From contig NZ_JBAJII010000002.1 in assembly GCF_036867195.1 (NCBI RefSeq), forward strand, positions 1 to 64,000: a DNA stretch of 64,000 bases, read 5' to 3'. The stretch is from Arthrobacter sp. Soc17.1.1.1 (lineage in GTDB: Bacteria; Actinomycetota; Actinomycetes; Actinomycetales; Micrococcaceae). The notes under the pieces are model-generated. The model was not told where the DNA came from, did not search any database, and was given only the letters and a program-made list of their open reading frames with translations. This document shows positions 1,711-44,412 of the stretch, in pieces (positions within the stretch are counted from its first letter, which is position 1; each line of letters opens with the position of its first letter). The translations under genes were made by a program, and so were the position numbers.

Positions 1711-2069
1711 TGGCCGGCGGCCGCGGGTTGTTTCACCTGTAGTGCTTCCCTGCTCTCCGCCAGGGCTCCGAGCAGGGTAACGGTCCTTCGCTTCGCTCCG
1801 GCCTGATTGGGCTCGGGCACTCCTTCGTCGCACCCGACCCTGATCTGTCCACGACGTTTTTTGCTGCTGTCCTTCGGATTGTGCGCCCCCGCTCCACAGC
1901 GTCAACCGGCTCCGCCGGCATCGGGCACACCGATCCTGTCCGGCGCTCCTGCGTCGCTTATTTCCTCCCAGGATCGGCGCACCCTCGCACCTGCGGCGTT
2001 GAGCACTGCTCCGTCGGGGACGAGCGAGCGAGCTCGCCAGCAGGCAAAACACAACGGGGGAGAGGGGCC
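1711..2069 (+). ncRNA. Repeated non-coding element, copy 1 (possible structured RNA)
   Basis: About 360 nt between the TlpA-like gene and the gene at 2126, with no credible ORF. It shares ordered blocks with 5511-5840 and 14985-15306: a hairpin-prone CTTCGCTTCGCTC block, a T-run followed by GCTGCTGTCC and CGGAT (1857-1890), CGGCGCTCCTGCGTCGCT plus TATTTCCTC (1941-1968), and a tail with CTCCGTCGG, CCAGCAGGCAAAAC and a GGGGAGAGGGG purine run. CTCC(T)KCGTCG motifs recur inside each copy. Spacing between blocks changes by amounts not divisible by three, which argues against a protein. It lies about 55 nt upstream of the GTG of the next gene in the same orientation, so it could be a leader RNA, a stand-alone RNA or a DNA-level element. 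No known RNA family was recognised. Confidence 0.5.
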
Positions 2070-2125: not shown

Positions 2126-2572
2126 GTGAACTCTATGAACACTGATACCGCAGTTCTGGTCAGCACCACCACGAAGGACACCGAGGAAATCATCACCGCC
2201 CCGGTCCTGCCGGTGGACGATCGCACCGGGGACGGGTACGACTGGCTCGATACCCTCACCGGCAGCCCGTGGAAGGTCATGGGCGCGTGGGGTACCGATG
2301 GATGGGACGCCGGGTCCTGGCCCTACGTCTTCTTCGCCACCGCCACCCACCGAGACGAGACCGGCACCCTGTACGGGTACGGGACCTACATCGAGGGCGA
2401 CACCTACACGCACTGGTACCGCGCCGAGGACGCCTGCCACAAGGCGATCACCGCAGAGGTCTTCTGGTACTGGAAGCACGGACAGGCAGACGGGCCGGCC
2501 CACCTGCCCGCCACGGCCGAGGAGCTGGACGACGAGTTCACCAAGCCCTACGGATGCATCCACCGCTGCTAG
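2126..2572 (+). CDS. Hypothetical plasmid protein
   Basis: 148 aa, not recognised. GTG start with AAGGAG 7 nt upstream. The N-terminal ~35 residues are Thr/Val-rich and probably disordered; the rest is a compact acidic domain rich in Trp and Tyr, with a Gly-Tyr-Gly-Thr-Tyr strand and a C-terminal C-I-H-R-C motif (Cys at 144 and 148) after an earlier Cys in the helix around residue 105. No signal peptide or TM segment. It is the first gene downstream of non-coding element copy 1 and is followed by a strong hairpin, so it may be a single-gene transcript. It is the first of a run of small plasmid housekeeping genes (NrdH, Ssb). Confidence 0.75.
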   Translation: MNSMNTDTAVLVSTTTKDTEEIITAPVLPVDDRTGDGYDWLDTLTGSPWKVMGAWGTDGWDAGSWPYVFFATATHRDETGTLYGYGTYIEGDTYTHWYRAEDACHKAITAEVFWYWKHGQADGPAHLPATAEELDDEFTKPYGCIHRC

Positions 2573-3086: not shown

Positions 3087-3341
3087 ATGACCATCACCAT
3101 CTTCGAGAAGCCCACCGGGTGCTTCGGATGTAAGAAGACGAAGGAACTGTTCGACGCCGCCGGCGTCCAGTTCAACACCGTGGACATCACCACCAACGAC
3201 CAGGCCCTGGCCTACATCACCGACGAGCTCGGCTACAGCCAGGCACCCGTCGTGGTCTACGAAAAGGACGGCAGCGAGGACCACTGGTCCGGCCTGAACC
3301 CCACCAAGATCAACCAGGTCATCGCCCTCGACGGCAAGTAG
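3087..3341 (+). CDS. nrdH: NrdH-like glutaredoxin/redoxin
   Basis: 84-aa thioredoxin-fold redoxin. The active site is C12-F-G-C15 near the N-terminus, followed by the cis-Pro segment APVVVY and the C-terminal W-S-G-L-N-P-x-K-I motif typical of NrdH, which donates electrons to class Ib ribonucleotide reductase and is itself reduced by thioredoxin reductase. AAGGA lies 9-10 nt before the ATG. No nrdE/F/I genes are nearby; plasmid-borne NrdH-like proteins next to ssb may support DNA precursor supply or act as general reductants. Fold call firm, partner unknown. Confidence 0.88.
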   Translation: MTITIFEKPTGCFGCKKTKELFDAAGVQFNTVDITTNDQALAYITDELGYSQAPVVVYEKDGSEDHWSGLNPTKINQVIALDGK

Positions 3342-3437: not shown

Positions 3438-3986
3438 ATGGCAGGAGAAACGATCATCACCGTCATCGGGAACCTCACCGCGGATCCCGAACTCCGCTTC
3501 ACCCCCAGCGGGTCAGCGGTCGCGAACTTCACCATCGCGTCCACCCCGCGCACCTTCGACCGGCAGTCCAACGACTGGAAGGACGGGGAAACCCTGTTCC
3601 TGCGCTGCAACGTCTGGCGCGAATCGGCAGAGAATGTCGCCGAGACTCTGACCAAGGGAACCCGTGTCATCGCCCATGGCCGGTTGAAGTCCCGCAGCTA
3701 CGACACCAAGGAAGGCGAGAAGCGCACCGTCATGGAACTCGAGGTCGACGAGGTCGGGCCGAGCCTGCGCTACGCCTCGGCGAAAGTCACCCGCGTCCAG
3801 CGCAGCGGATCCGGCGGCGCCGGTGGAGGTAACGCCCAGGGCGGGGGAGGGTTCCAGGGAGGAGCGCAGCCCGGCAACACATGGCAGCAGCAACCCGCGG
3901 AAGATCCATGGGGAGCCCCCGCAGCGGCTCCTGCCGGCGGCGCCGGTGGGTGGGGCAACGGGCCGGAGAGCGAGCCGCCGTTCTAG
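3438..3986 (+). CDS. ssb: Single-stranded DNA-binding protein
   Basis: Plasmid-encoded SSB, 182 aa. Residues 1-~110 form the OB fold, with the conserved actinobacterial opening [20 protein letters not shown] and the W-x-R strand motif ([15 protein letters not shown]). A Gly/Gln-rich linker follows, then the acidic tip ESEPPF that recruits replication and repair proteins. The ATG at 3438 is chosen because SSBs of this group begin MAGE; an upstream in-frame TTG at 3429 is unlikely. On conjugative plasmids SSB coats the transferred strand in the recipient. The 8-bp iterons immediately upstream suggest control by a plasmid regulator. Confidence 0.95.
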
Positions 3987-5510: not shown

Positions 5511-5840
5511 GGCCGGCGGCCGCGGGTGTGTCACCTGTAGTGCTTCCCTGGTCTCCGCTGGCGCTCCAACCAGGGAAACGGTCCTGCGCTTCGCTCCGGC
5601 CTGACAAGGCCCGGGCGCTCCTTCGTCGCACCCGACCCTGATGTTTTCTGCTGCTGTCCTTCGGATTATGCGCCCCCGCTCCACACCGTCAATCGCTGAC
5701 GCGACGGGGCCGGCCATAAACCTCTACGGCGCTCCTGCGTCGCTTATTTCCTTCGAGGTTTCATAGCAGGCCCTGCCCTTCGGGTTGACAGTGCTCCGTC
5801 GGGGACGAGCGAGCGAGCTCGCCGGCAGGCAAAAAACAAC
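5511..5840 (+). ncRNA. Repeated non-coding element, copy 2 (cut by an IS110 element)
   Basis: Closest relative of copy 1, with long nearly identical stretches: the opening GGCCGGCGGCCGCGGG, CACCTGTAGTGCTTCCCTG, GCGCTTCGCTCCGGCCTGA, the T-run/GCTGCTGTCC block (5643-5682), CGGCGCTCCTGCGTCGCTTA (5727-5746) and the CTCCGTCGGGGACGAGCG tail. Similarity stops sharply after AAAAAACAAC at 5840. The purine tail seen in copies 1 and 3 is missing and IS110-type sequence begins, so the IS probably inserted here or deleted the end. No protein-coding pattern is preserved between copies. Confidence 0.5.
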
Positions 5841-7330
5841 TGTGAGTCTTGACGGTGGCTGGTCTGGGACTAGCTGGCAGTGTTGATGCCGGTCGTTCTG
5901 CCTGGCGCGTGACTCGAAAAAACAATTGCCCCGCCAGGGTGCATTTCCCCCGACTTGTCCGCGCTGGGTGGAGCGGCCGGCGTTGACCTGTCCCACGACG
6001 GTGGCTTGATTAGAAGCCTGCCCGGCCCCTGCGGCTGTGGCTCATCACAGTATTGCCTCGACGTGACTCCTCCCAGGTCAGTGCCGGTCGCGATGCGACC
6101 AGTCTTGCCCGCTCGAAAGGAAGGAGGGTGGCCGCATTGACTATCGTTGCGCAGACCCGCCCATTCGTCATCGGCGTGGACTGCCACGCCCGCACCCACA
6201 CGTACGCCATCATTGAGGCCAGCACTAAGCAACGGGTCGCGTGCGAGCAGTTCCCGACCACGTCGGCAGGGCTTTCGCGCGCGCTTGCCTGGGTAGGCCG
6301 ACGGACAGGCGGGGATATGTCCTGTCTATGGGCCGTTGAGGGTATCGGCTCTTATGGTGCACGCCTGGCCAGGGCAGTAGCCGACGCCGGCTACGACGTC
6401 GCCGAAGCTCCAAGGATGAACGCCCGAGGGCGCCGGGGGATCGGTAAATCCGATCCGCTGGACGCCACCGCCATCGGAACCGCAGTCCTCAGCTTGGAGG
6501 AGTCCCAGCTCCGCGCCCCGCGCCGGGATGAAGGAACCCGTGCCGGGCTTAGGATCCTGAGCGCGGCTCGGGATCAGTTGACACGCGAACGAACAGTAAA
6601 CGTCAACGCACTCATCGCCTTACTCCGGGCACACGACCTGGGAATCGACGCTCGTAAACCGCTGGTTGCCGCCCAGATCGCCACAATCACCAGATGGCGG
6701 GAACGAGACGAGCCAATCGAGTTGCTGATCGCGCGTGAGGAAGCAGTCCGGTTGGCGCGCCGCGTTCTTGAAGTGACTACTCAGCTGACTGCAAACCAGA
6801 GGCGCATGACCGAACTGATCCAGCAAAGCCCAGCGGCGCCGCTGTTGGAGATGGTGGGCGCCGGTGCTGTCACTGTCGCCACCGTCCTGACAGCCTGGTC
6901 GCATCCAGGAAGGGTTCGCAGCGAAGCTGCCTTCGCCTCACTGGCAGGAGTGAATCCCTTGCCGGCTTCAAGCGGTAACACTGTCCGACACAGGCTCAAC
7001 CGGGGCGGGGATAGGCGCCTCAACCGTGCCTTGCATACCATCACCATGACCCGGATGGTCCACGATCCCGGAACTCGGGACTACGTCGCCAAACGCACCC
7101 AAGAAGGGCGGAGCTACCGCGAGATCCGCAGATCCCTCAAGCGCTACATCGCCCGAATCCTCTACCGCCAACTCAACGCCCTTTACGCCACCGCGGAACC
7201 GGCCCCATCCCACGTTGCTGGGGCAGATGGTTCAGATGGTGTCCTTTAGCGGATCCGCTCATGCGCATCCTGACGCGGTATGTGAATTGCACTACCCATA
7301 AGACCTCCGTATGTGTCGCGTGCCGCTCAT
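5841..7330 (+). mobile_element. IS110-family insertion sequence (ends approximate)
   Basis: The left boundary is placed where homology to the non-coding element ends. The right boundary is a guess about 80 nt after the transposase stop. IS110 elements lack clear terminal inverted repeats and make no consistent target duplication, so the ends cannot be fixed from one copy. The ~295-nt non-coding left end before the transposase is the region where IS110-group elements encode the guide (bridge) RNA that pairs with donor and target DNA. Confidence 0.6.
6137..7249 (+). CDS. IS110-family transposase
   Basis: 370-aa DEDD recombinase. The N-terminal RuvC-like domain has IGVDCHARTHTYAI with the first catalytic Asp, an acidic motif near AVEGIGSYG, and KSDPLDATAIG carrying the last two acidic residues. 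The C-terminal Transposase_20 domain has LLEMVGAGAVTVATVLTAW, FASLAGVNPLPASSG with the conserved Ser region, and the R-G-G-D-R-R-L-N motif. The TTG at 6137 is chosen because GGAGG ends 9 nt upstream; a GTG at 6128 touches the ribosome binding site and the 6053 start lacks one. The frame is intact, so the element could be active. It separates the housekeeping block from the copper cluster. Confidence 0.9.
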   Translation: MTIVAQTRPFVIGVDCHARTHTYAIIEASTKQRVACEQFPTTSAGLSRALAWVGRRTGGDMSCLWAVEGIGSYGARLARAVADAGYDVAEAPRMNARGRRGIGKSDPLDATAIGTAVLSLEESQLRAPRRDEGTRAGLRILSAARDQLTRERTVNVNALIALLRAHDLGIDARKPLVAAQIATITRWRERDEPIELLIAREEAVRLARRVLEVTTQLTANQRRMTELIQQSPAAPLLEMVGAGAVTVATVLTAWSHPGRVRSEAAFASLAGVNPLPASSGNTVRHRLNRGGDRRLNRALHTITMTRMVHDPGTRDYVAKRTQEGRSYREIRRSLKRYIARILYRQLNALYATAEPAPSHVAGADGSDGVL

Positions 7331-14984: not shown

Positions 14985-15306
14985 ACCCGCCGGTAGCCTG
15001 AAGACTCTGGGTTCCGGCCTCGCCCAGCAGGCGCCCAGGCTTACTGCACGGGCCTCGCTTCGCTCGGGCTGTAGAAGCCATCTTTCTGTTTTGCTGCTGT
15101 CCTGACGGATCGTACGTGTCCGCTCCGACCTGTCTAGCCCCTCCTTCGTCGGGGCCTGCGGTGCAGAAAATGTCCCTGCGGCGCTCCTTCGTCGCTGATT
15201 TCCTCCGAGAATTCCCCGCCCCTTGCCCTCACGGGCAGACAAGCCTCCGTCGGCCACAGCTCCGCAAGCTCCGCCAGCAGCCAAAACAACGGGGAAGAGG
15301 GGAAGC
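14985..15306 (+). ncRNA. Repeated non-coding element, copy 3 (upstream of parB-like gene)
   Basis: The most diverged of three copies. The blocks keep their order: CTCGCTTCGCTCGGGC hairpin, TTTTGCTGCTGTCCT then CGGAT and CCGCTCC (15088-15127), CTCCTTCGTCGGGG, CGGCGCTCCTTCGTCGCT then GATTTCCTC (15179-15206), and CTCCGTCGG, CCAGCAGCCAAAAC, GGGGAAGAGGGG. Lengths between blocks differ from copies 1 and 2. It lies about 140 nt upstream of the ParB-like gene in the same orientation. The open frame starting at 15116 crosses it without conservation. A structured RNA, a leader or a DNA-level site are all possible. Confidence 0.5.
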
Positions 15307-15448: not shown

Positions 15449-16963
15449 ATGTCTGTTCTGGAACAGATCAACCCAGCCACCCTCACCATCGACGTGAACG
15501 TGCGCGCCGAAGCGAACCTCGACAAGGCGTTCCTGTCCTCCATCAAGGAGCACGGCGTCATTCAGCCCGTCGTCGCTCACCGCATCGAGGACGGCACCGT
15601 GCACGTCCTATACGGGCAGCGGCGCACCCTCGCCGCCGTGGAGAACAACCTCGACACCATCCCGGTGTACGTGGTCGATTCCCTCACCGAAGCCGAGCGG
15701 CTCGCCAAGCAGATCGTGGAAAACGACCAGCGCCGCGAACTGACGGACAACGACCGCGCCGAAGCCTTCCACCAGCTGTCCCTGCTCGGTGTGTCAGCGA
15801 CGCAGATCGCCCGCAAGACCGGGGCGAGGAAGGCCACCGTGGACGCGGCCCTGAAAGTGCGCTCCGACGACACCGCGACCGCGTTCCTCGCCGCAGGGAT
15901 GACGCTGGACATGGCAGCAGTAATCGAGGAATTCGCCGGAGACACCGACGCAATCGAGAAGCTGGAAGCCGCTGCGAAGCAGGCCCCGCAGAGCTTCGAC
16001 CACACCGCGCAGCGCATCCGCGACGACCGGAAGCGGGAAGCCGCAGGCGCGGCAGCCAAGGCCGAAGCCGAAGCCGCAGGTCTGGCAATCATCGAGGACT
16101 CAGCGTTCACACACTACGACTACAAGGGTCCGATTGCTGACATCACCGACCTGCGCACCAAGACCGGGGAGCGGCTGACAGTCGAGGACGCGAACGCCGC
16201 CTACGTCCGGTGGACCTACTCAGGACTCGCGACGGCCTACGTCAACACCGATTGGAAGGCAGCAGGGTTCGTGAAGCCGGGCGCACCCCGGGCCGGGAAG
16301 ATGACCGAGGAGGAAAAAGCCGAACGCCGAACCGTGATCGAGAACAACAAGGCGTGGGACGCCGCTGAGGTGGTCCGCATCGAATTCGTGAAGGGACTGC
16401 TCAAAGGCAAGACACCCCCGAAGAACGCGCTCCGATTCATCGCGCAGGCCATGGCCTCCCACTCCAATACCGTGGCGAAGGGACTGAACGACGAGAGCGA
16501 TTTCTCCGCCGAACTGCTGACCGGCAAGACGACGGAGACTCGTTTCGGTGGGAACCGGGAACTGGTGAAGATCGCCAGCCGCCCGACCGCCCGGCATGAA
16601 ACGAACGTCCTTGCCATGGTTCTCGCCGGTTTCGAGAAAGGCACCTACCGCCAGTCATGGCGCGACGGCGGGGCCAGCACGAAGTTCTACCTGACCCAGC
16701 TCGCTACATGGGGATATAACCTCAGTGACGTGGAACGCCTGATCACTCACCCCGCCCCCAAGGTTGCACCCGAAGCCGCACCCGAAGAGGCTCCCGCCCC
16801 CGAGGTCACGCCTGAGGACGTTGCTGAGGACGGCGCGAGTGGAGCAGACACCGAGCAGGCCGACCCCGAGGATGCCGACACCGCCGACGAAGCGGAAGCC
16901 TTCGAGGAAATTCGCACCACGGAAGAGGAAATGATCGCGGAAGAGTTCGCCACCGCCGAGTAG
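15449..16963 (+). CDS. parB: ParB/RepB/Spo0J-family protein
   Basis: 504 aa. Residues ~5-100 form a ParB N-terminal nuclease/CTPase-like domain with IKEHGVIQPVVAHR and the box YGQRRTLAA. A linker with ENDQRRELTDNDRAEAFHQL leads into the HTH (VSATQIARKTGARKATVDAAL). A long C-terminal part follows with an acidic Glu/Ala/Pro tail from ~435. The ATG has AAGAAGGA 8 nt upstream. No parA adjoins it (the ParA/RHH pair is at 60.4-61.6 kb), so it may be a plasmid-specific ParB-like regulator rather than a partition protein. Element copy 3 precedes it and a strong hairpin follows. The family is clear, the role uncertain. Confidence 0.85.
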   Translation: MSVLEQINPATLTIDVNVRAEANLDKAFLSSIKEHGVIQPVVAHRIEDGTVHVLYGQRRTLAAVENNLDTIPVYVVDSLTEAERLAKQIVENDQRRELTDNDRAEAFHQLSLLGVSATQIARKTGARKATVDAALKVRSDDTATAFLAAGMTLDMAAVIEEFAGDTDAIEKLEAAAKQAPQSFDHTAQRIRDDRKREAAGAAAKAEAEAAGLAIIEDSAFTHYDYKGPIADITDLRTKTGERLTVEDANAAYVRWTYSGLATAYVNTDWKAAGFVKPGAPRAGKMTEEEKAERRTVIENNKAWDAAEVVRIEFVKGLLKGKTPPKNALRFIAQAMASHSNTVAKGLNDESDFSAELLTGKTTETRFGGNRELVKIASRPTARHETNVLAMVLAGFEKGTYRQSWRDGGASTKFYLTQLATWGYNLSDVERLITHPAPKVAPEAAPEEAPAPEVTPEDVAEDGASGADTEQADPEDADTADEAEAFEEIRTTEEEMIAEEFATAE

Positions 16964-17803: not shown

Positions 17804-18002
17804 CTAACGGTTAGCGCCCGCCCACCACGGGCCGACCTCGACCGATCACCGACCATGCCCGACGTCACCGCCGGCGCCCGTGAGATACCCATGCGGACCT
17901 CGCTGACGCTCGGACTGGATCCAACGGACGTTGACCACACGTGGACAGCTCCGAGATATCCCAACGTCTCTTTGCTGCCCACCTGGTGGATAACGTCCGT
18001 TA
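17804..18002. other. Candidate oriT region between the accessory gene and relaxase
   Basis: This ~530-bp intergenic region has no credible gene. It contains the palindrome CTAACGGTTAG (17804-17814) and a 10-bp inverted pair AACGGACGTT (17923-17932) and AACGTCCGTT (17992-18001), with GTTAGCG repeated next to both features. oriT usually lies next to the relaxase gene and contains such repeats. The nic site was not identified. Confidence 0.4.
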
Positions 18003-18252
18003 GCGGTTCCACACAATCGAACGATCCGTGGATAACGAAAATCGTGTTACCCACCGCTCATTCTCATGTGCACAACCGCATCGAGATTCGATGGACCAAT
18101 CGTACTGGTTTCCACGGCGCGTAATCTTGGTTTCCTCCTTCGTCGTCACCATGCGATTTCACACACTTCCAACCAGCACAATCTGTCACACCTTATGCAT
18201 CCTGATGAGTGAGGTCGACCGCGCGCCGATTTTGCGCGAGAATGAGCCGGTG

Positions 18253-21200
18253 ATGACCGTCCATAAGCTCAGTGCTGGGGACGGCTACGCCTACTACACT
18301 TCTGAGGTCGCCAGCGCCGACGAGCTCCGAGCGGGCGACCGTGAGCTGGGGGACTACTACACCGTTGAGGGCATGCCACCGGGCCAGTGGGTCGGACACT
18401 CCGAACAGCTGCTGGGGGTCTCCGGTGAGGTCAGCGAAACTCAAATGAAAGCCCTGTTCGGTGAGGGCATGCACCCTGAAGCCGCGAGCATCCTCGCCGC
18501 CGGGGGCATGACCGCGCAGATCAAACTGGGTCAGAAGTACCACCAGTACGGAGCTGCCAATACGGAGATGACCCGCCGGATCGACGAGGAAGTGGCCCGA
18601 TTCCGGCGCACCAACGGACCCGCGTGGAGCGGCCCGGAGAACGCCGAGAAGGTTCTGCCGACCGAGGTCATGCACGAGATTCGGTTCCGGGTGGGCGGCG
18701 AGATGTTCCGGGCGTCACACGGTCGGAACTCCCGCAGCAACGAGGAGCTGGCACGGTATGTGACTGCGCAGACCACCCCCTCGAAACAGACCGTCGCCGG
18801 GTATGACCTGGTGTTCTCGCCCGCCAAATCGGTGTCCCTGCTGTGGGCACTCGGTGGCGACGAAGCCCGGAAGGCCATCGAGACCGCACACAACGAAGCG
18901 ATCGCCGAGACGATCACTTTCCTCGAGAAGAACGCCACCTACACGCGCCGTGGGAAGAACGGGGTCCGTCAGATCGACGTCGACGGCGGGCTGGTCGCCA
19001 CCCAGTTCCGGCACTACGACTCCCGCGCCGGGGACCCCCAGCTGCACGACCATGTCGTCATCGCCAACAAGGTGCGAGGCGACGACGGGAAGTGGTCCTC
19101 CCTCGACGGACGCACCCTCTACAAGATGAACGTCGCCGCGTCAGAAACCTACAACGCGAAGGTCATCGAGAAGGTCTGTGCGTCCCTCGGCGTCAGCACA
19201 GTGGCCCGCACAGCCGGTGGCGGAGAACCCATCTACGAGGTCGCCGGCATCGACCTGGACACCATTCACCGGGCATCCTCACGACGGTCAGACATCGCCA
19301 GAACCATCGGCAGACTGGAAGCCGAGTTCGCCGACAAGCACGGGTACGCGCCCAGCGACAAGCAGAAGATCGCCCTCGCGCAGCAAGCCACTCTGGAGAC
19401 AAGGCCGGAGAAGAAGAGTGCCCGCCGTCTGTCGGAGCTGGTCGAGGAATGGCAGCAGGACTACAGCTCGAGCACGAACATGCCGGTCGGACCTGACCTG
19501 CTCGAGCACGTCCGCAACGCGAGCACAGGAACGCCCGTAGGTGCACTGGTCAACGACCTCGACGTCCACGAACACGCACGCCTGGTTGTCCACGAGCTGG
19601 CCGCGAAGCGTGCCGTCTGGGGACGGAACCACGTCATCGCCCAGACCCGCAGGCACCTCAAAGAAGCCTTCCCCGGACAGACCATCACCGACGAGACCGT
19701 GGAGAACGTCACCCGGGAAGCCACCGGGACGCACAGCCTCCAGGTCACCCCGGACACGATTACACCGAAGCTGGCCGAGTTCCTACGCGCCGACGGCACG
19801 AGTCAGTTCCAGCAGGCCGACGTCACCCTGTTCACCTCGCAGGAGGTGTTGAACGCCGAGCACCGGGTCCTGGCTGCAGGACAGAAGATCGTCATCCCGG
19901 CCGTGTCAGCTGAACGCTTCGACACTCTGTTGTCACAGCACGTCGAGGCCGCCGCCGCCAACGGGGCGCCAGTGTTGTCGCAGGGTCAGATCGACCTCGC
20001 ACGCGCCTTCGCGACCGACGAGAAGCTGCTGACCCTCGGCATCGGACCCGCCGGCGCGGGCAAGACCACGAGCCTGTCCCTGGCCGCTGACGCCGTCCGT
20101 GACAGCGGCGGGAAGGTCATCGGACTCGCACCCACCGCAGCGGCCGCCGCCGTGATGTCCAAGGACATCGGAGCGGACGCGACAACGATCGACGCGTTCC
20201 TCATCTCCCACCGAAACCAGCAGGGCCAGCAGAACCAGCAAAACAGTATGGCCAAGGACGGCCACGACAACGGCGGGTCCACCTTCGCTCTCGGTGCCGG
20301 AGACGTGATCATCGTCGATGAGGCAGGGATGGTCACCACGCCGAAACTCGCCGAGGTCGTCGCGGTCGCCGCGCGCAACGGTGCCGTGGTGCGTGCAATA
20401 GGTGATGACCGGCAGCTCGGAGCCATCGGCTCCGGCGGCGCGCTGCGCCTGCTCAACAACGAGGTCGGAGCAGTCCGCCTCGAGGAGGTCCACCGCTTCC
20501 ACACCGAAGGCGAAGCGGAGGCTTCCCTGGCCCTCCGGGAACCGGCAACCGTCGGAGCTGACACCCCCTTCCGCTGGTACGTCGAGAACCAGCGTGTCAC
20601 TGCTGGCACCACCGAAGCCATGACCCAGGATGCTTTCACCGCGTGGATGACCGACACCGCAGCAGGTAAGACGTCGCTGATGATCGCCACCGACAATGCC
20701 ACCGTCACGGACCTCAACGCCCGCGCCCAAGCCGCCCGCATCGCTACAGGTGACCTCACTGACGGGGCAGGCCCGATCACGGAAGCGACGCCATCCGTGG
20801 TCCTCCGCGATGGGCTCCGTGCCTACCCCGGCGACACCGTCGTCACCCGCAGGAACGACCGGACGTTGCAGCTCAACCAGGGCAAGGACTTCGTCAAAAA
20901 CAACGACGTCTGGACCGTGGAACATGTCACCGCCAACCCCACCACCGACCACGCAGCAGCACAGCCGGAGACACAGGACCGGCAGCGGGTGACCCTCCGT
21001 CACACTGGCCACCGGGGACGTATCACTGTCGACGCCGACTACCTGAACGAGCTCGGACAGCTCGGCTACGCCGCGACCGTGCACCGCGCCCAGGGCGCCA
21101 CCGTGGACACCGCACACGCGATCCTCGACGAGCGGACCGACCGCGCCGGCGCCTACGTCGCCGCCACCCGCGGACGCGAGACGAACAAGCTTTACGTCGC

Positions 21201-23055
21201 TCTCGGCGACGACAACGACCAGACCGTCACCCGCGACAGCGTCCTCGCGTCGATCACCGCAAACTACGACCGGACCCTGTCCGCCCACGAAACAGTCCGC
21301 GCCGAAGCCGTCCGCACCGGTGACGTCGCCACCGTCGCCGGCGTCTACAACGAGGTCGAAGCAGCAGCATGGACCGCGAAGACCCGGGGTATCGCGCAGG
21401 ACGTCATGGGGCAGGAAGCCGCCGCTGCATTCACCTCGCACGAGTCATGGGGCGCCGTTGCCACGCACCTGCGGCGGGCTGAGAACGAGGGCCTGGACGC
21501 GTCTACGGTCCTCGCTCAGGCGTACCGGGAACGAGGGTTCGCAGGCGCCGACGACGCAACCGCCGTCCTCGCTTTCCGCGTGGAGAATCGGATCGACACC
21601 GCGCAGCAGATCCGGGCGAACACCGGACAGCGGCAGCTCGGTGCCCTCACCGACGATCACCTCGACCGCCTCGCGCAGCAGGCCGAGAAGCACGCCGAGG
21701 GCGCTGCCGCCGGTCAGCTCCGCCGGACACCCGGTGAAGCTCACATGGACACCGAATGGGCTGCCCGGCCGTTCGCGCTCCTGTACACCAGCAGACTCAC
21801 CGAGACACGCGACAACGTTGCGGAACGGTTGCAGTCCCTCGACCCGACCGCCTCAATCAGTGCCGCGACGAGGAAAGAGCAGTGGATGGTGAAGACCATG
21901 ACCCTCGAGCTCGAGCGCAGGCAGGATCTCTCCCCGACGCAGACAGCGATCGAACGCACCGCCCGTGGTGAGGATCCCCGCAGCGCCCACCAGGTCACGA
22001 TCGCCGAGGCAATCCGCCAGGAGCGCCAGCTACGCGAGGCCGGCATCCCCAGCACCAGCAGTCGGACGGTCACCAGTGCCGGCGGCGCAGGGTTCGACCG
22101 GTCCACCATCAGCGAGGACCTCGCACCGTCCGTGCTCCTGCAGGACGCACGGGTGCCGGTCGAGTACAGGGATGAACTTGACCGGCTTCGGGCACACCTC
22201 GGACAGCGGGTCGCTGTACGCGGCGCGCAACTCGCCGAGGAACAACCGGCGTGGGCGGCCGCACTCGGACCGGTGCCGGCGAAGGAGTCCAAGGCCGCCG
22301 AATGGCATGGCATCGCGGCCGAGACCGAGGCGTATCGGAACCGGTACAACATCGGGACTCGCGAGACGGCGATGATCCCGAAGCAGTACCAGGACGACCC
22401 TGTCGCGCAGCGGTTGGTCGAGCGTGCCACGGCTCTGCACAAGCACAGCGCCCTCACACAGGTCCCGCCGCGCAGCGCCGCCCAGGTGCAGCAGACAACC
22501 GACGAAGCAGCGATCACCGACCGCATGACCGCGAATCAGGCCGCAGCGCGCAGGGCTATCGAACGCCTCCAGGCCGAACGTGCCGCTGCCAGCGACCCGC
22601 TGCCGGCACCGCAGCAGCGCGAAGCGCGCATCGTCGGCGCCCTACAGTCCACTGACTTTGTGCCGGCCGCTGTGCAGTCCGCGGCGACACCTGAGGTGCA
22701 GCCGCAACGCTCCGCGACGGAAGAGGCCGCGATCGCACGCGCGATCGCACGGCATCGGGCAGTTGCGGAGAAGTCCGCAGGGACGTCGTCCTCCGACACG
22801 TCCGGATCCGGCGAGGCAACCGGGCGGTCAACGAGCTCCCAGAAGAAGGAGAGCGCCGCGAGTCAGGAAAAGGGTGGCACCGCACAGGATGCAGCGCGGA
22901 AGAAAGAAAGGAGTCAGCGGCAAACCGAGTTGATTCAGAGCAGGAAAGCTACCGCCTCCGAGCGTCAGGCCCGGGAAGCGGCATCAGGCAAGAACGATTC
23001 CGCTGCCGCGAAGCATCGAGCTGAGCAGGCAAAAAACAGCGGCCGGTCACTGTAG
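18253..23055 (+). CDS. traA: MobF-family (TrwC/TraI-like) relaxase-helicase
   Basis: 1600-aa conjugative relaxase fused to a helicase. The start is ATG 18253 because MTVHKLSAGDGYAYYTSEVAS is the canonical MobF opening with catalytic Tyr candidates Y12, Y14 and Y15. The metal-binding His triad is H254 (FRHYD), H265 and H267 (QLHDH). The RecD-like helicase part has Walker A GPAGAGKTTS (~598-607) and Walker B VIIVDEAG (~685-692), then a UvrD-C-like segment with GYAATVHRAQGATVDTAH. The last ~250 residues are charged and repetitive. It nicks oriT, stays covalently bound to the strand and is pumped with it through the T4SS encoded at 42-55 kb. A diverged fragment of a related gene lies at 25577. 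Confidence 0.95.
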   Translation: MTVHKLSAGDGYAYYTSEVASADELRAGDRELGDYYTVEGMPPGQWVGHSEQLLGVSGEVSETQMKALFGEGMHPEAASILAAGGMTAQIKLGQKYHQYGAANTEMTRRIDEEVARFRRTNGPAWSGPENAEKVLPTEVMHEIRFRVGGEMFRASHGRNSRSNEELARYVTAQTTPSKQTVAGYDLVFSPAKSVSLLWALGGDEARKAIETAHNEAIAETITFLEKNATYTRRGKNGVRQIDVDGGLVATQFRHYDSRAGDPQLHDHVVIANKVRGDDGKWSSLDGRTLYKMNVAASETYNAKVIEKVCASLGVSTVARTAGGGEPIYEVAGIDLDTIHRASSRRSDIARTIGRLEAEFADKHGYAPSDKQKIALAQQATLETRPEKKSARRLSELVEEWQQDYSSSTNMPVGPDLLEHVRNASTGTPVGALVNDLDVHEHARLVVHELAAKRAVWGRNHVIAQTRRHLKEAFPGQTITDETVENVTREATGTHSLQVTPDTITPKLAEFLRADGTSQFQQADVTLFTSQEVLNAEHRVLAAGQKIVIPAVSAERFDTLLSQHVEAAAANGAPVLSQGQIDLARAFATDEKLLTLGIGPAGAGKTTSLSLAADAVRDSGGKVIGLAPTAAAAAVMSKDIGADATTIDAFLISHRNQQGQQNQQNSMAKDGHDNGGSTFALGAGDVIIVDEAGMVTTPKLAEVVAVAARNGAVVRAIGDDRQLGAIGSGGALRLLNNEVGAVRLEEVHRFHTEGEAEASLALREPATVGADTPFRWYVENQRVTAGTTEAMTQDAFTAWMTDTAAGKTSLMIATDNATVTDLNARAQAARIATGDLTDGAGPITEATPSVVLRDGLRAYPGDTVVTRRNDRTLQLNQGKDFVKNNDVWTVEHVTANPTTDHAAAQPETQDRQRVTLRHTGHRGRITVDADYLNELGQLGYAATVHRAQGATVDTAHAILDERTDRAGAYVAATRGRETNKLYVALGDDNDQTVTRDSVLASITANYDRTLSAHETVRAEAVRTGDVATVAGVYNEVEAAAWTAKTRGIAQDVMGQEAAAAFTSHESWGAVATHLRRAENEGLDASTVLAQAYRERGFAGADDATAVLAFRVENRIDTAQQIRANTGQRQLGALTDDHLDRLAQQAEKHAEGAAAGQLRRTPGEAHMDTEWAARPFALLYTSRLTETRDNVAERLQSLDPTASISAATRKEQWMVKTMTLELERRQDLSPTQTAIERTARGEDPRSAHQVTIAEAIRQERQLREAGIPSTSSRTVTSAGGAGFDRSTISEDLAPSVLLQDARVPVEYRDELDRLRAHLGQRVAVRGAQLAEEQPAWAAALGPVPAKESKAAEWHGIAAETEAYRNRYNIGTRETAMIPKQYQDDPVAQRLVERATALHKHSALTQVPPRSAAQVQQTTDEAAITDRMTANQAAARRAIERLQAERAAASDPLPAPQQREARIVGALQSTDFVPAAVQSAATPEVQPQRSATEEAAIARAIARHRAVAEKSAGTSSSDTSGSGEATGRSTSSQKKESAASQEKGGTAQDAARKKERSQRQTELIQSRKATASERQAREAASGKNDSAAAKHRAEQAKNSGRSL

Positions 23056-36519: not shown

Positions 36520-38133
36520 CTACTTGCGCCCTACACCGATGAAGGAGACACCCGTGGTGGGCAACGGCTGGAAGCCATCGAGCGCGTTGCTGTCCCAGGC
36601 GGTGGGGAGCTTGCGGTGGAACAACGGGTACAGGGGGACCTCGTCGGACACGATGTCGACGACCTCGGCGTGAACGTCCTTGGCGTCCTTGGCGTCGAGT
36701 TGGACCGCCTCATTAAGCTTCTTCTGCACCTCGGCGTACGCGGGTGCGGTATTCCAGCCGGCACGGTTTTCCATCCAGGTTGCGCCCCGGTAGAACCAGC
36801 TCAGGAGGATGTCACCGTCATTGCCGAACACGGACGGGTCGCCCGGTGCGCAGAGGACGTCGAAGTTCTTTCCGCCGACTTTTTCCGGCGCGTAAACCGC
36901 GGCCGACTGGAGGATCTCCAGGGTCGTGTTCACGCCGATCGCATCCCAGTATTCCTTGATCAGGGGCACGACCCGCGCCACCCAGCCGGTGTCTGTGGAG
37001 GTCAGGGTGACAGTCATGTCCTGGAGACCGGCGTCCTGCAGGAGGGATTTCGCCTTCGCAGCGTCGTAGCCGTAGGTCGTGGACGCTTTGCTGTAGGAGG
37101 GGTGCCCTTCCTGGAAATAGGACGTCGCGGCTGTCGCGTTGCCCAACAGGGCCTTGGTGATGACCGCGTCCGTGTCAATTGCGTAGTGCAGCGCCTGACG
37201 CACCCGCTTGTCCGAGAACTTTTCGGACTGGCAGTTGAACATGAGGAACAGCAGGCCGAAGGACTGCACCGATTCGACGTCCACCTTGCCGGCGAGCTGG
37301 TCGACGTCCAGGTAGGGGACGTCTTCGATGACCTGGGTCCGTGAGGGCACGGCGGCGACGCGTGCAGCAGGATCGGCCAACAGGAGCCACGTCATGTCCT
37401 GCACCCTGGCCGGGTACGTGCCGTTGTAGGCGTCGAACTTCTTGAAGACGATGCGGTCTTCCTTGACGGCGGAGACCAGGCTGTAGGGGCCGGAACCGAT
37501 TGGCGCGAGGTCAAAGGCGGCAGGGTCAGCGGTCACGGCTGCTTCAGGGACGACCTTGATGACGGAGATGCGCTCACTGAAGCCCGGGAAAGGGTATTTC
37601 AGGTTGAACTGAACCGTGGTGGCATCCTTGGCGGTGACGCTGTCGATGAAGGGAATGAAGCCCGCGAAAAGCGACTTGTTGGCGGGGTCGAGGACCCTGG
37701 TGAAGGAGAAGACCACGTCAGCGGGAGTAACTGCTTCTCCGTTGTGGAAAGTTGCCCCTTCGCGGAGCCGGACCTCATAGGTGGTGTCGTCCACCTTCGT
37801 CGGTTCAGCCGCGGCAAGGGCCACGTAGGGCTCACGCGTGGCGGGATGGAGTTCCATCAGGCCTTCGAAGATATGCAGGTTCGCGGCCTGGGGCGTCGCT
37901 CCCGTGGCCAGCATCGGATCGAACCCGGTCGAGAGCTGGTAGGAGATACCGGCCTCGATGGAGCCCGTGCCCTCAGCCGCGCCGGTGCCGGCGGGCGCTG
38001 GGCTGCCACCGGGGCTGCAAGCAGAAATCGATCCTGCAAAGGCAGCAGCGGCACCCATGACGCCTGCCAGTTTCAGGAAATTCCGGCGACTGGAGTCACT
38101 TACCAGCCCGGTCGATTCGAAAGTGTTGCTCAT
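36520..38133 (-). CDS. Tat-dependent ABC substrate-binding lipoprotein (SBP family 5)
   Basis: 537 aa. The N-terminus has a twin-arginine signal S15-R-R-N-F-L-K, a hydrophobic stretch and a lipobox ending S-I-S-A-C39, so it should be exported folded by Tat and then lipidated. The mature part is an extracellular solute-binding protein family 5, with the N-terminal conserved ATPQAANLHIFEGLMEL and REGATFHNGEAVTPADVVFSF. Family 5 proteins bind peptides, nickel or, in some actinobacteria, sialic acid. First gene of the minus-strand nan operon, downstream of the promoter/operator at 38158-38278. The tat genes at the other end of the same operon could serve it. Confidence 0.92.
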   Translation of the reverse strand: MSNTFESTGLVSDSSRRNFLKLAGVMGAAAAFAGSISACSPGGSPAPAGTGAAEGTGSIEAGISYQLSTGFDPMLATGATPQAANLHIFEGLMELHPATREPYVALAAAEPTKVDDTTYEVRLREGATFHNGEAVTPADVVFSFTRVLDPANKSLFAGFIPFIDSVTAKDATTVQFNLKYPFPGFSERISVIKVVPEAAVTADPAAFDLAPIGSGPYSLVSAVKEDRIVFKKFDAYNGTYPARVQDMTWLLLADPAARVAAVPSRTQVIEDVPYLDVDQLAGKVDVESVQSFGLLFLMFNCQSEKFSDKRVRQALHYAIDTDAVITKALLGNATAATSYFQEGHPSYSKASTTYGYDAAKAKSLLQDAGLQDMTVTLTSTDTGWVARVVPLIKEYWDAIGVNTTLEILQSAAVYAPEKVGGKNFDVLCAPGDPSVFGNDGDILLSWFYRGATWMENRAGWNTAPAYAEVQKKLNEAVQLDAKDAKDVHAEVVDIVSDEVPLYPLFHRKLPTAWDSNALDGFQPLPTTGVSFIGVGRK

Positions 38134-39886: not shown

Positions 39887-41218
39887 TTGGTCACACATCA
39901 TGCCCAACCCACCAACCACCAGCTGGAGGATGTGGGCTCGAAGAACTCTGCCGGTCCTGGTCCGTCACGCCTCGTCCTTCTGGGAACGGCAGTCACCCCG
40001 CAGGGAGTCATTGATCGTGCATCGGTTGTAGTCGACGGTGCCACGCTGATCCACGCCGGCCCTACCGAAGCGTTCAGACCGGCGGACACAGATGTCGTCA
40101 TGCACCTGGCAGAGGAAGAGGTTCTCGTGCCCGGTCTCGTGGACATCCACTGCCATGGAGCCTTCGGCGTCGACTTCTCCACCGCCAACGCCAACGAAGC
40201 GCGGCAGGCGATCCGCAAGCTTCACGCCGCGGGCAGCACCACACTCGTCGCCAGCCTCGTCACCGCAGCCCCGGACATCCTTATCCGGCAACTGGACATG
40301 CTGGCGGACCTCGTCGATGAGGGCCTGCTGGCAGGACTGCACCTGGAGGGACCCTTCCTCGCCGAAGCCCGCTGCGGGGCACAAAATCCCCGGTGGCTCC
40401 GCGAGCCCGACCTCGTCCTCACCCAGTCACTCATCAGTAGCGCGCGCGGCCACCTCACGACTATGACTTATGCACCTGAGTTGCCGGGAGCCGATGAGCT
40501 GGTCAGACTCCTCGTACACAACGACGTCGTCCCGTCCCTCGGGCACACAGCCTGCTCACCCCTCGAAGCAAATCACTCCCTGAGCCTTGCACGCCAGCAG
40601 CTATCTGCCCGAAGCGGCACGAAGGACTGGCCGCGCCCGACAGTCACTCATCTCTTCAATGCCATGGAGCCTTTGCATCACCGCTCCCCCGGAGCCTTGC
40701 CCGCCTGCCTCCGGGCCGCGAGGGCCGGCAACGCCGTCGTTGAGCTCATCGCGGACAACACACACCTGCACCCCGACATCGTCGCGACGATGTTCGAACT
40801 CCTCGGAGCCGCCAACATCGCACTGGTCACCGACTCCATGGCCGCTGCGGGCCTCCACGACGGGCTATATCGGCTGGGCCCCACCGAGGTCATCGTTCAG
40901 GACGGCGTGGCACGCGTGGCCGAGACAGGAGCCATCGCCGGCGGTACCGCAAGCATGCTCGACCTCCTGCGGAACACGACCCGCGCAGGCGTCACCCTCG
41001 ACGACGCCGTCACTGCAGCAGCCCACACACCAGGGAACCTCCTCAGCCGCGCACCAAGGGTCGGGCAACTCAGGGAGAACCACGCCGCGGACCTTCTGAT
41101 TCTTGACGCGAATCTCGAACCCGACTACGTGATGCGTCAGGGACAGTGGGTCGGCCGGCAGCCTGGGGAATCAGCCTCACCTCATCATGGAGCTGGCTAT
41201 GCCGCCGATCGTCCCTGA
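39887..41218 (+). CDS. nagA: N-acetylglucosamine-6-phosphate deacetylase
   Basis: 443 aa, amidohydrolase fold. Metal and catalytic motifs are VDIHCHGAFGVDF, LHLEGPFLAEARCGAQN, SLGHT, THLFNAMEPLHHR and LVTDSMAAAG with the catalytic Asp. It removes acetate from GlcNAc-6-P to give GlcN-6-P for nagB. The TTG start at 39887 is weakly supported; a GTG at 39932 has GGAGGA only 1 nt upstream. The first ~40 residues do not look conserved, so the true start remains open. Confidence 0.92.
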   Translation: MVTHHAQPTNHQLEDVGSKNSAGPGPSRLVLLGTAVTPQGVIDRASVVVDGATLIHAGPTEAFRPADTDVVMHLAEEEVLVPGLVDIHCHGAFGVDFSTANANEARQAIRKLHAAGSTTLVASLVTAAPDILIRQLDMLADLVDEGLLAGLHLEGPFLAEARCGAQNPRWLREPDLVLTQSLISSARGHLTTMTYAPELPGADELVRLLVHNDVVPSLGHTACSPLEANHSLSLARQQLSARSGTKDWPRPTVTHLFNAMEPLHHRSPGALPACLRAARAGNAVVELIADNTHLHPDIVATMFELLGAANIALVTDSMAAAGLHDGLYRLGPTEVIVQDGVARVAETGAIAGGTASMLDLLRNTTRAGVTLDDAVTAAAHTPGNLLSRAPRVGQLRENHAADLLILDANLEPDYVMRQGQWVGRQPGESASPHHGAGYAADRP

Positions 41219-42727: not shown

Positions 42728-44412
42728 GACGCGTTTCCAACTTTCGCTGCCTTGATGCGCCCGACTGTGGGTTTGATGCGGCCACTCATGGCCTTATCTC
42801 GGAACCAGGGCACCGTGCGGACGATGGCTCCGCCTCCGTTGGAAGTCTTCACCCATGCACGGTTGGCGGGAAGTTCGGAGAGCTGGGAGACGGACATGAT
42901 GTCCCGCCGCTGGGTCTGTATGGACCGGGACGACCCATTCCTGGAAGTCGAGCTACTGCGAACCTTCGCGTCGTACTGACCGATCGTCTTGGACAGTGAT
43001 TCGAGGAATTGTGTGTCGTCGGAACCACCGCCGTAGACCTTGATTGCGGCAGCCGACCAGAGGGTGTCCCACCCGGTGCGCTCGAGCATCGCCATCCCCT
43101 GCCCGCGAGTCTGGAAGTAGGAGCTGACGACGATGCCCATGGACCCGAAGAACGAATACCACTCAGGCAGCTGCTTGAGCTTGACGACGTTCCCGACCTC
43201 GTCCAGGTCAGCGACCAGCGGCACCGGCAGGCGACCACCGGCACGACGGGCGGCCTGCTGCGCGGCCGTGAACACCGCGTAGACGAGCGTGGACACGAAC
43301 GCTGCGCCGGAACCGGCGGAGTCCTGCGCGAGCAGGATCAGGGTGTCCTTCCCGGTGAGGAACCGGGCCGGATCGAACACCGGGACGCCCGGGGTGGGCG
43401 TCGACCATGCCGCAAGCTCGTCGTGGACGAGGGCGGAGGCCATGCGCTGGGCGCTGGCGGCAACGGACCCGCGGGTGTCGTCCGGTTGGGCGCTCATTCC
43501 CTTCAATGCGGATGCCGGACCCGCATGGCCTGCCCGCTCGAGCAGTTCGGCCGGCTCCATGAAGTCCGCTGAGGACACCCACCGCAGGACCTCCTTCACC
43601 GTGCCGCCGCTTTTCGCGGCGGCGAGAAGGCACCAGGCCAGGAAGTCACGTCCCTGCGAGTCGAACTGGGCATCCCCCTTGCCTTGCCCGGCGTTCGGCG
43701 CGGAGGAGGTTTCGAAGATCGACGCGACCTCGCCGGCGCTCACGGTATCGGTGACGATCGTGAGCGGGTTGAAAATCATGGCCGGACGGTGGCTGTCGCG
43801 CCAGATCCGCTGCGGGTCGAACAGCCACACCGTCCCGGTCTCGGAGCGGGCGGCCAGGACCTCGGCGACACCGTCGACCTTGTTACTGGTCATCAGGTAC
43901 GCGCCGGGGGCCTCCAGGGCGTGACGGACGACCTGCGTCGTCGTCTTACCCCGCCCGGTCCCCCACACATGGGTCGAGCACTCACGCCAACCCTGGATAA
44001 CCGCCTTGGTACCGGTGTCGCCCGTGTACCCGATCGTCAGGCCCGGGCCGATCATGACTGCATCCGGGTGGAGGCGGACTGCTTCGGTGAGGCGGGCATC
44101 GAGCATCGCTGGGCGCATCTTTCCGCCAGGGCTCATCCGTCGGGATGCCTCGGCGGTCCTGGACGCCGGGCGGGTGCTCCACCACGCAAAGGCAGCGATA
44201 ACCACGACCGCTTCGGCGCCGAGCAACCAGCTCGCGGCCGCCGGCCACGAATCCCCGGTGGCAAGACCGATCGCCAGTGCGATCGGGTTCCATGACAGGT
44301 CGGTGGGAACCGGTGTGAAGGCTTCCCCAAGGTGGATCAGGGCGACCGCGACGAACGTGGCCAGGACCAAAAACGAGAACGCGATAACAGGGCCGTTCTC
44401 CTCGTTCCTCAT
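42724..44412 (-). CDS. Type IV coupling protein (TraG/VirD4-like ATPase)
   Basis: 562 aa. Two N-terminal TM helices (residues ~8-28 and ~60-80) anchor a cytosolic ATPase with Walker A G151-T-G-R-G-K-T157 and Walker B PLVADLDEVGN. A TraM-recognition-like segment precedes a disordered basic C-terminus. It links the relaxosome made by the MobF protein to the secretion channel. A short tandem duplication of GAACCGATGA-type sequence lies at the junction with the VirB4 gene, 10 nt upstream. Confidence 0.9.
   Translation of the reverse strand: MRNEENGPVIAFSFLVLATFVAVALIHLGEAFTPVPTDLSWNPIALAIGLATGDSWPAAASWLLGAEAVVVIAAFAWWSTRPASRTAEASRRMSPGGKMRPAMLDARLTEAVRLHPDAVMIGPGLTIGYTGDTGTKAVIQGWRECSTHVWGTGRGKTTTQVVRHALEAPGAYLMTSNKVDGVAEVLAARSETGTVWLFDPQRIWRDSHRPAMIFNPLTIVTDTVSAGEVASIFETSSAPNAGQGKGDAQFDSQGRDFLAWCLLAAAKSGGTVKEVLRWVSSADFMEPAELLERAGHAGPASALKGMSAQPDDTRGSVAASAQRMASALVHDELAAWSTPTPGVPVFDPARFLTGKDTLILLAQDSAGSGAAFVSTLVYAVFTAAQQAARRAGGRLPVPLVADLDEVGNVVKLKQLPEWYSFFGSMGIVVSSYFQTRGQGMAMLERTGWDTLWSAAAIKVYGGGSDDTQFLESLSKTIGQYDAKVRSSSTSRNGSSRSIQTQRRDIMSVSQLSELPANRAWVKTSNGGGAIVRTVPWFRDKAMSGRIKPTVGRIKAAKVGNAS

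Follow-up and report, generated by a model that had tools for sequence, protein, structure and literature searches.

A repeated element of Arthrobacter plasmids with a strand-specific, covarying fold: a probable single-stranded DNA promoter of the conjugative leading region

The window, by which we mean the whole 64,000-nt stretch of DNA analysed here, belongs to a 180,591-base contig (C2) of the 4.2-Mb genome of Arthrobacter sp. Soc17.1.1.1. It contains three copies of a non-coding element, together with genes for a single-stranded DNA-binding protein (SSB), a ParB-like protein and a MobF relaxase:

1711..2069, plus strand: copy 1, upstream of a cluster with NrdH and SSB; no annotated gene lies beneath the match in relatives H1 and H2
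2126..2572, plus strand: first gene after copy 1, in a family that makes up 39 of 169 downstream ORFs and 47% identical to its representative
3087..3341, plus strand: NrdH-like glutaredoxin (PF00462)
3438..3986, plus strand: SSB (PF00436)
5511..5840, plus strand: copy 2, its 3′ end interrupted by an IS110-family insertion
14985..15306, plus strand: copy 3, before the ParB-like gene; the limits are those of the original prediction, with the match at 15089-15302
15449..16963, plus strand: ParB-like protein after copy 3 (PF02195)
17890..18130 (approximate), unstranded: candidate oriT, a conserved non-coding block just before mobF with the hairpin CATCGA-GAT-TCGATG, picked out by eye
18250..23055, plus strand: MobF relaxase-helicase (TrwC PF08751, AAA_30; from Pfam), with a putative start codon

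The original prediction had described three copies in one orientation at these positions, two of them close and one diverged, and blastn together with reading of the sequence bears out three homologous copies, all on the plus strand. Copies 1 and 2 are indeed close (82% identity over query positions 2-345 of 359, E = 2.8e-87; 81.7% over 349 alignment columns). Copy 3 is diverged as described (69% over 15089-15302, E = 2.6e-9), but its clear homology is limited to the 3′ two-thirds, with one more 23-nt block matching further 5′ (E 0.024). The CTCC(T)KCGTCG motif is present by eye in every window copy, copies 1 and 3 stand as proposed upstream of genes (the NrdH/SSB cluster and the ParB-like gene, respectively), and copy 2 is truncated, as had been noticed, by an insertion sequence, here an IS110-family insertion immediately past AAAACAAC. 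Contig C4 of the same genome carries two further copies on its minus strand (43462-43757 and 40944-41111), and contig C5 carries one diverged copy found by profile search (37257-37376).

Several copies in other replicons are interrupted as well. The IS110-family insertions share one position in the element, between AAAACAAC and TGTGAGTC (window 5831-5850 and loci L002, L013, L043, L068, L090 and L091); an insertion occupies this point in 9 of 184 distinct copies, with 12 junction matches in the loci examined, some of them overlapping, and the 3′ end of the element looks like the target site of the IS110 group concerned. At L022, L025, L034:35255, L071, L150 and L201, the 3′ arm of the helix that we call P1 is exchanged for TGACAACATCATTGAGA-like sequence, which probably belongs to the end of a further insertion and would mark a second fixed position at which the element is cut. 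One element copy in L018, within 1602-1866, contains more than 40 consecutive C.

The element family is widespread in Micrococcaceae plasmids, where its recurrence is far above chance. Blastn against PLSDB found 97 places in 45 plasmids of Arthrobacter, Pseudarthrobacter, Paenarthrobacter and Citricoccus, and a profile search found at most six copies in a plasmid. Matches occur in 24 of 57 genomes, counting the source genome, and in 93 of 295 Micrococcaceae genomes (17 of 32 genera), many of the weakest matches in the latter count covering only some 27 nt of the core or coming from diverged relatives on chromosomes. Scanning one genome per species for the core pattern returned at least 119 stretches, of which those in Pseudomonas, Oleiagrimonas and others resemble coding sequence or chance by eye. 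Nesterenkonia, Aeromicrobium, Rothia and Intrasporangium contain diverged relatives that share the core. A class-wide profile scan matched 9 of 394 genomes, with the six outside the family being weak (best E 1.7e-7), and a pattern scan of viral contigs gave three chance-like matches. Diverged relatives are also chromosomal, lying before DUF4192 genes, and a PF03432 search found no relaxase of this type near them. Around the chromosomal DUF4192 copies with the element (L220-L224; four of the five regions read, as ORF lists) we noted by eye recombinase, transposase or restriction-modification-like genes, and several of these DUF4192 copies are broken or degenerate. Contigs labelled Vibrio cholerae strain 35D (L072, L109) also contain an Arthrobacter-type element, and probably derive from a mislabelled or contaminated assembly.

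For structural analysis, 158 elements were reduced to 106 by removing copies shorter than 180 nt, longer than 280–290 nt or more than 92% identical. Alignment A1 consisted of 45 of 51 listed references, and alignment A2 of 46 of 60 sequences sampled from 88 and thinned by hand, which with window copies 1 and 2 gives 48 rows. On the minus-strand alignment of 48 sequences, RNAalifold, limited here by its use of RNA parameters, predicted 39 pairs, 28 of which show changes on both sides; five pairs added by hand for the helix of the −35 box discussed below make up a 44-pair structure in which 92.2% of 2100 cells are paired. The original prediction had asked for covariation across homologues, and this was found: 31 of the 44 pairs in the 48-row alignment show changes in both partners, where shuffles average 20.0, and on each of five measures the observed value was reached by 0 of 500 shuffles, which ignore shared ancestry. 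When one arm is slid by 1–3 columns, pairing falls to 35–46%. The core hairpin has an invariant interior, and its stems are very different between copies yet still complementary. Pair 79/209 of the −35 helix shows no pairing in 17 of 48 rows, part of which looks like misalignment. Single-sequence folds of copy 1 are no stabler than shuffles (z of −0.28 for the DNA minus strand, +0.28 for the DNA plus strand and +0.47 for the RNA plus strand), and with DNA parameters RNAalifold returned next to no consensus structure for either strand; as the fold energies of copy 1 are shuffle-like, the structural case rests on covariation, and stability is not used as evidence. A decayed protein-coding gene, also tried as an explanation, was rejected in view of the both-side changes in 31 of 44 pairs. 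The main parts of the fold in copy 1 are:

1857..1869, minus strand: 3′ arm of helix P1 on the putative transferred strand; plus-strand letters TTTTTTGCTGCTG; helix 1, with 97.9% of cells paired and six core pairs
2038..2050, minus strand: 5′ arm of helix P1; plus-strand letters CAGCAGGCAAAAC; covariation helix 1
1870..1878, minus strand: GNA-triloop hairpin TCC-GAA-GGA, immediately following the hidden −10 box; helix 10, paired in 48 of 48 rows
1929..1978, minus strand: main covarying hairpin, with stems 1929-1938/1969-1978 and a tandem-GA/GNA motif at 1945-1957; helices 7-9

By eye, many copies end in GCCAGC and are followed some 25–40 nt downstream on the plus strand by GCTGGC or CTGCTGG. 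The 5′ arm of P1 could pair with this downstream segment instead, so that two mutually exclusive folds are possible.

The fold prefers one strand. The motif reads GCTCCTnCGTCGC on the plus strand and GC-GA-C-GNA-G-GA-GC on the minus strand, where a stem is followed by a tandem G·A, a single Watson-Crick pair and a GNA loop; on the plus strand, the same positions would place T·C and C·T mismatches where the tandem G·A stands. Tandem G·A pairs are stable. Hairpins of this tandem-GA/GNA type number 165 on the minus strand (in 94 of 106 elements), 0 on the plus strand and 1.2 per shuffled set. Of 162 loops, 155 are GNA, the loop-closing pair is C-G in 84 of 99 rows and G-C in 12, and the outer stems vary (ACCCGGT/ACCGGGT, GCCCC/GGGGC, TGC/GCA). 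Plain GNA hairpins of three or more pairs follow the same pattern, with 260 on the minus strand, 18 on the plus strand and 61 in shuffles. Among 49 pairs predicted for both strands, 202 cells (28 pairs) are G·T on the minus strand, compared with 100 cells (10 pairs) that are A·C. The hairpin after the −10 box pairs in 48 of 48 rows, its loop being three bases long in 33 and four in 15. Both GNA and GNNA loops have been described as forming extraordinarily stable DNA mini-hairpins (PMC4686876).

The minus strand also carries a promoter-like sequence, with a −10-like hexamer beside the GNA hairpin and a −35-like hexamer 16 nt further up. We scanned the 106 elements freely for TTGACA-N16-18-TATAAT, requiring A at −11 and T at −7 and scoring 12 bases, and on the minus strand 90% of elements score at least 8 and 68% at least 9, compared with 3% and 1% on the plus strand and 8% and 1% in shuffles. 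The 48-row alignment, which was built without a promoter anchor, has A at −11 in 48 of 48 rows, T at −7 in 48 of 48 and A at −8 in 47 of 48, and its −35 columns read T in 47 rows, T in 25 or A in 20, G in 46, A in 40, C in 38 and G in 35. When elements are anchored on the hairpin, which itself includes the final two −10 letters, the anchor is present in 100 of 106 (six lack it), A occupies −11 in 98, and 16 is the best spacer in 93 of 100. The consensus fold leaves five of the six −10 positions unpaired and places the −35 box within helix 3, where its second base covaries with its partner in some rows and is unpaired in 17 of 48. The in silico folds of copies 1 and 2 are predicted to reconstitute a −35 and −10 pair directed at the gene, and the DNA minimum-energy fold of copy 3 departs from the consensus picture around −10. 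The promoter scan placed the boxes on the minus strand of the window as follows:

1878..1883, minus strand: copy 1 hidden −10, CACAAT, on the putative transferred strand
1900..1905, minus strand: copy 1 hidden −35, TTGACG, with a 16-nt spacer
5665..5670, minus strand: copy 2 hidden −10, CATAAT
5687..5692, minus strand: copy 2 hidden −35, TTGACG, with a 16-nt spacer
15109..15114, minus strand: copy 3 hidden −10, TACGAT
15131..15136, minus strand: copy 3 hidden −35, TAGACA, with a 16-nt spacer

The N16 spacing is kept in diverged relatives such as TTGTGC-N16-TATGAT (L067, score 8) and TTGTCG-N16-TAGAAT (L205, score 9), and TTGCGT-N16-GATNAT occurs in L063, L088, L192, L242 and L243. Diverged relatives mostly score 7, barely above the shuffled mean of 6.2, and the scan found no boxes in L076 and none where expected in L195. 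As a positive control, the same scan of the F plasmid ssb and ygeA regions gave at best 7 of 12 on either strand, so that it fails to recover the boxes of the F single-stranded promoter, Frpo, itself. The gene upstream of many copies runs in the same direction by eye in annotation tables, and the hidden promoter is therefore generally no ordinary divergent promoter.

The original prediction had offered either a structured RNA or a large DNA-level element. An RNA, whether a 5′ leader or a small RNA on either strand, would account for the strong covariation and for a near-constant leader length, and yet on the plus strand it would have to do without the motif hairpins (0, against 165 on the minus strand), with fewer wobble pairs and with hardly any forward double-strand promoter, which scores at least 9 of 12 in 1 of 101 elements and at least 8 in three. 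Rfam likewise offers no match: at gathering score it finds 0 families in the window, a check that the original prediction had called for, and eight sub-threshold matches in five copy-bearing loci are chance-like. A minus-strand RNA meets a different difficulty, as the sole minus-strand promoter that we found has most of the structured part on its 5′ side, and an RNA made from it in double-stranded DNA would accordingly begin beyond most of the structure and lack it. GNA loops are a known extra-stable form of DNA (PMC4686876), which may also speak against an RNA, and overall we regard the RNA reading as very improbable. The DNA-level reading is supported and can be made specific, as a covarying structure on the putative transferred strand.

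The orientation of the element follows that of the relaxase gene. Across 26 replicons (23 PLSDB plasmids and contigs C2, C4 and C5), 83 of 84 element profile matches lie on the relaxase strand, and the single off-strand match is weak (E = 0.005); relaxases were recognised by TrwC PF08751 or PF03432, and the PLSDB sample is 23 of 45 records. Measured around circular records, the distance from the relaxase to the closest upstream element is at most 15 kb in 20 of the 26 replicons and 19–57 kb in the other six. Contig C3 has a relaxase and zero element matches. From the orientation of the relaxase gene we infer that the minus strand is the transferred strand. The block before mobF, which is highly conserved in the window, L034 and L035 and contains repeated GTGGATAAC and a perfect hairpin, is a candidate for the oriT of these MOBF plasmids.

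The element is also closely tied to the gene that follows it. From the end of the model to the annotated start codon, the distance is 62–74 nt in 41 of 43 copies, with exceptions of 55 and 17 nt, a count made by hand from independent annotation that omits W16:115729 (inside an annotated gene) and W04:32553 (196 nt from a counted copy, with which it is in tandem). Copy 3 is an outlier, its start codon being 157 nt away. When ORFs were picked without bias, 60 of 98 starts fell 85–99 nt from GCCAGCA, the others being scattered (IS-cut copies, wrong ORFs), and a pick biased by a score term favouring 92 nt put 148 of 169 starts within 80–102 nt. Four families make up 142 of the 169 downstream ORFs, which include near-identical plasmids: ParB-like proteins (45, including window copy 3), the 2126-2572 family (39, with no Pfam match at E 0.01 for the 2126-2572 product), DUF4192 (37) and DprA (21). 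In Nesterenkonia, one copy stands before an ArdC N-domain protein, and establishment-type neighbours, which characterise the class of leading-region promoters, are represented by the SSB cluster and by ParB-like, DprA and ArdC N-domain proteins.

That ParB-like genes are such frequent neighbours (45 of 169) would also suit a double-stranded regulatory or partition site, either an operator array or a parS-like site for the ParB-like protein, and repeats in print have been connected with a shared mechanism of partitioning and conjugation (PMC10494377). Such a site would leave the co-changing arms and the strand-specific motifs without a reason, however, and the F leading region also has a ParB-domain protein; of the readings considered, we give this one the least credence and hold it to be extremely unlikely.

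Judging from computation on sequence alone, where the structure, its strand preference, the hidden promoter, the polarity and the gene adjacency can all be read, we think it highly likely that each copy is a single-stranded DNA promoter of the conjugative leading region, similar to Frpo in function. During transfer, the minus strand, as the putative transferred strand, would enter the recipient 5′ end first, starting from an oriT beside the relaxase gene. In the folded single strand, the 3′ arm of P2 would provide a paired −35 (TTGACG/TAGACG) and a mostly unpaired −10 (TANAAT) as the non-template strand, while the 5′ arm of P2 and the single-stranded DNA beyond it would serve as template, and the GN(N)A-loop hairpins would probably hold the fold against SSB. 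Host RNA polymerase, from a start site predicted some 85–110 nt ahead of the start codon, could then read the adjacent leading gene (the SSB cluster, ParB-like, DUF4192, DprA or ArdC-type) before the second strand exists. By the geometry of the predicted fold, the promoter would run away from the gene in double-stranded DNA and towards it only after the minus strand has folded; since the boxes face away from the gene in double-stranded DNA, expression would be early and transient.

The same strand, fold and promoter would also serve a single-strand initiation site (sso/ssi), at which the folded strand primes complementary-strand synthesis through RNA polymerase or a primase and the adjacency to genes is secondary. 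The title of the Frpo paper itself names both promoter and priming roles, the folded sso of F and of Gram-positive rolling-circle plasmids are said to be promoters for primer RNA (PMC4595007), and several copies per plasmid (up to six) could hasten conversion. Priming alone, however, would need neither a near-constant distance to the start codon (62–74 nt in 41 of 43 copies) nor a position before four recurrent gene families, and we consider it unlikely to be the main function.

A promoter active in the single strand finds its closest parallel in enteric plasmids, where the single-stranded DNA promoters reported as characterised are those of F and ColIb-P9 (PMC9849209, PMC11541004). F is described as having Frpo twice, before ssb and ygeAB, the copies being 92% identical and separated by some 5 kb; as single strands they are predicted to form stem-loops that contain a −35 and a −10, and the copies are required for early expression in the recipient (PMC9849209). 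As reported for the Frpo/ssi sequences of F and ColIb-P9, these are related non-coding copies kilobases apart and upstream of ssb or other leading genes, and folding of the transferred strand unites the −35 and −10 and aims them at the gene (PMC9849209, PMC11541004). In layout the window resembles F: related copies separated by a few kilobases stand ahead of an SSB cluster and of a ParB-like gene, and a MobF relaxase gene lies nearby. The three window copies compared with the regions upstream of ssb and ygeA gave a best blastn match of E 0.024 over 21 nt, and with no detectable homology to the F regions, the element is not of the Frpo sequence family; we place it in the functional class as a proposed independent member. 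It differs from Frpo in its multi-helix fold with GNA/tandem-GA modules, in boxes whose spacer is almost always 16 nt and which a plain scan detects here and misses in F, and in its occurrence on actinobacterial MOBF and MOBP plasmids, with up to six copies each.

Other systems share parts of this design. The promoters of the phage N4 virion RNA polymerase are single-stranded DNA hairpins whose loop needs a G:C closing pair, a 5′ G and a 3′ A, and SSB is reported to leave the template-strand promoter hairpin unmelted (PMC4496689). The C-GNA-G loop type of the N4 vRNAP promoters is present in the Arthrobacter element; N4 differs in using its own polymerase and one short hairpin, whereas the sigma70-like boxes here suggest the host enzyme. 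Gram-positive sso, such as sso1 of ICEBs1, are likewise folded single-stranded DNA, and host RNA polymerase is said to transcribe several of them (PMC4595007), but they are described as priming sites with no tie to a start codon. The EGeRS of pLS20 are repeats before establishment operons of a Gram-positive conjugative plasmid; for EGeRS1, in contrast, the authors argue against a single-stranded DNA promoter, since there the transferred strand is the non-template strand (PMC8708921).

The repeats themselves have been noticed before. Mihasan and Brandsch (2016), as cited by PMC10494377 and PMC6305408, described ‘conserved DNA-repeats’ in Arthrobacter plasmids, which are reported to lie 5′ of DUF4192, DprA and ParB in 12 plasmids and to reflect a common mechanism of partitioning and conjugation (PMC10494377), and are named as part of conjugal transfer modules (PMC6305408). 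These are very probably the present element, as the three genes are the same and pNtRoot-type plasmids are among the PLSDB matches. The view that the element matches no recognised family stands for Rfam, with 0 matches in the window, but not for the literature, where the repeats are already in print. In the citing papers they are treated as a marker of common partitioning and conjugation; as far as can be told, the strand, the fold, the hidden promoter, the polarity and the wider family are new here. A search of the literature, with most subscription journals outside its coverage, found no reading of such a sequence as a single-stranded DNA promoter in Arthrobacter or other actinobacteria.

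Going beyond the individual copies, we lean towards the broader view that the family is an independently evolved class of single-stranded DNA promoters in actinobacterial conjugative plasmids, with two relaxase classes, and in genomic islands. The class would act as a strand-state switch built from sigma-A boxes, GN(N)A/tandem-GA scaffolds that resist SSB and a pre-opened −10, and would perhaps also prime the second strand. A published survey of leading regions is reported to have found no Frpo-like sequence by similarity in islands from insect metagenomes and S. pneumoniae, with candidates emerging from a looser search (PMC11541004). If our reading is true, single-stranded DNA promoters arose at least twice and would be no enterobacterial peculiarity. 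The clear consensus, with its fold, boxes, spacing and many natural variants, would open the mechanism to direct testing, and the element would help to locate, in actinobacterial plasmids, the leading regions and the genes for early establishment or anti-defence, among whose products DUF4192, the plasmid DprA and the 2126-2572 family would be proteins worth testing.
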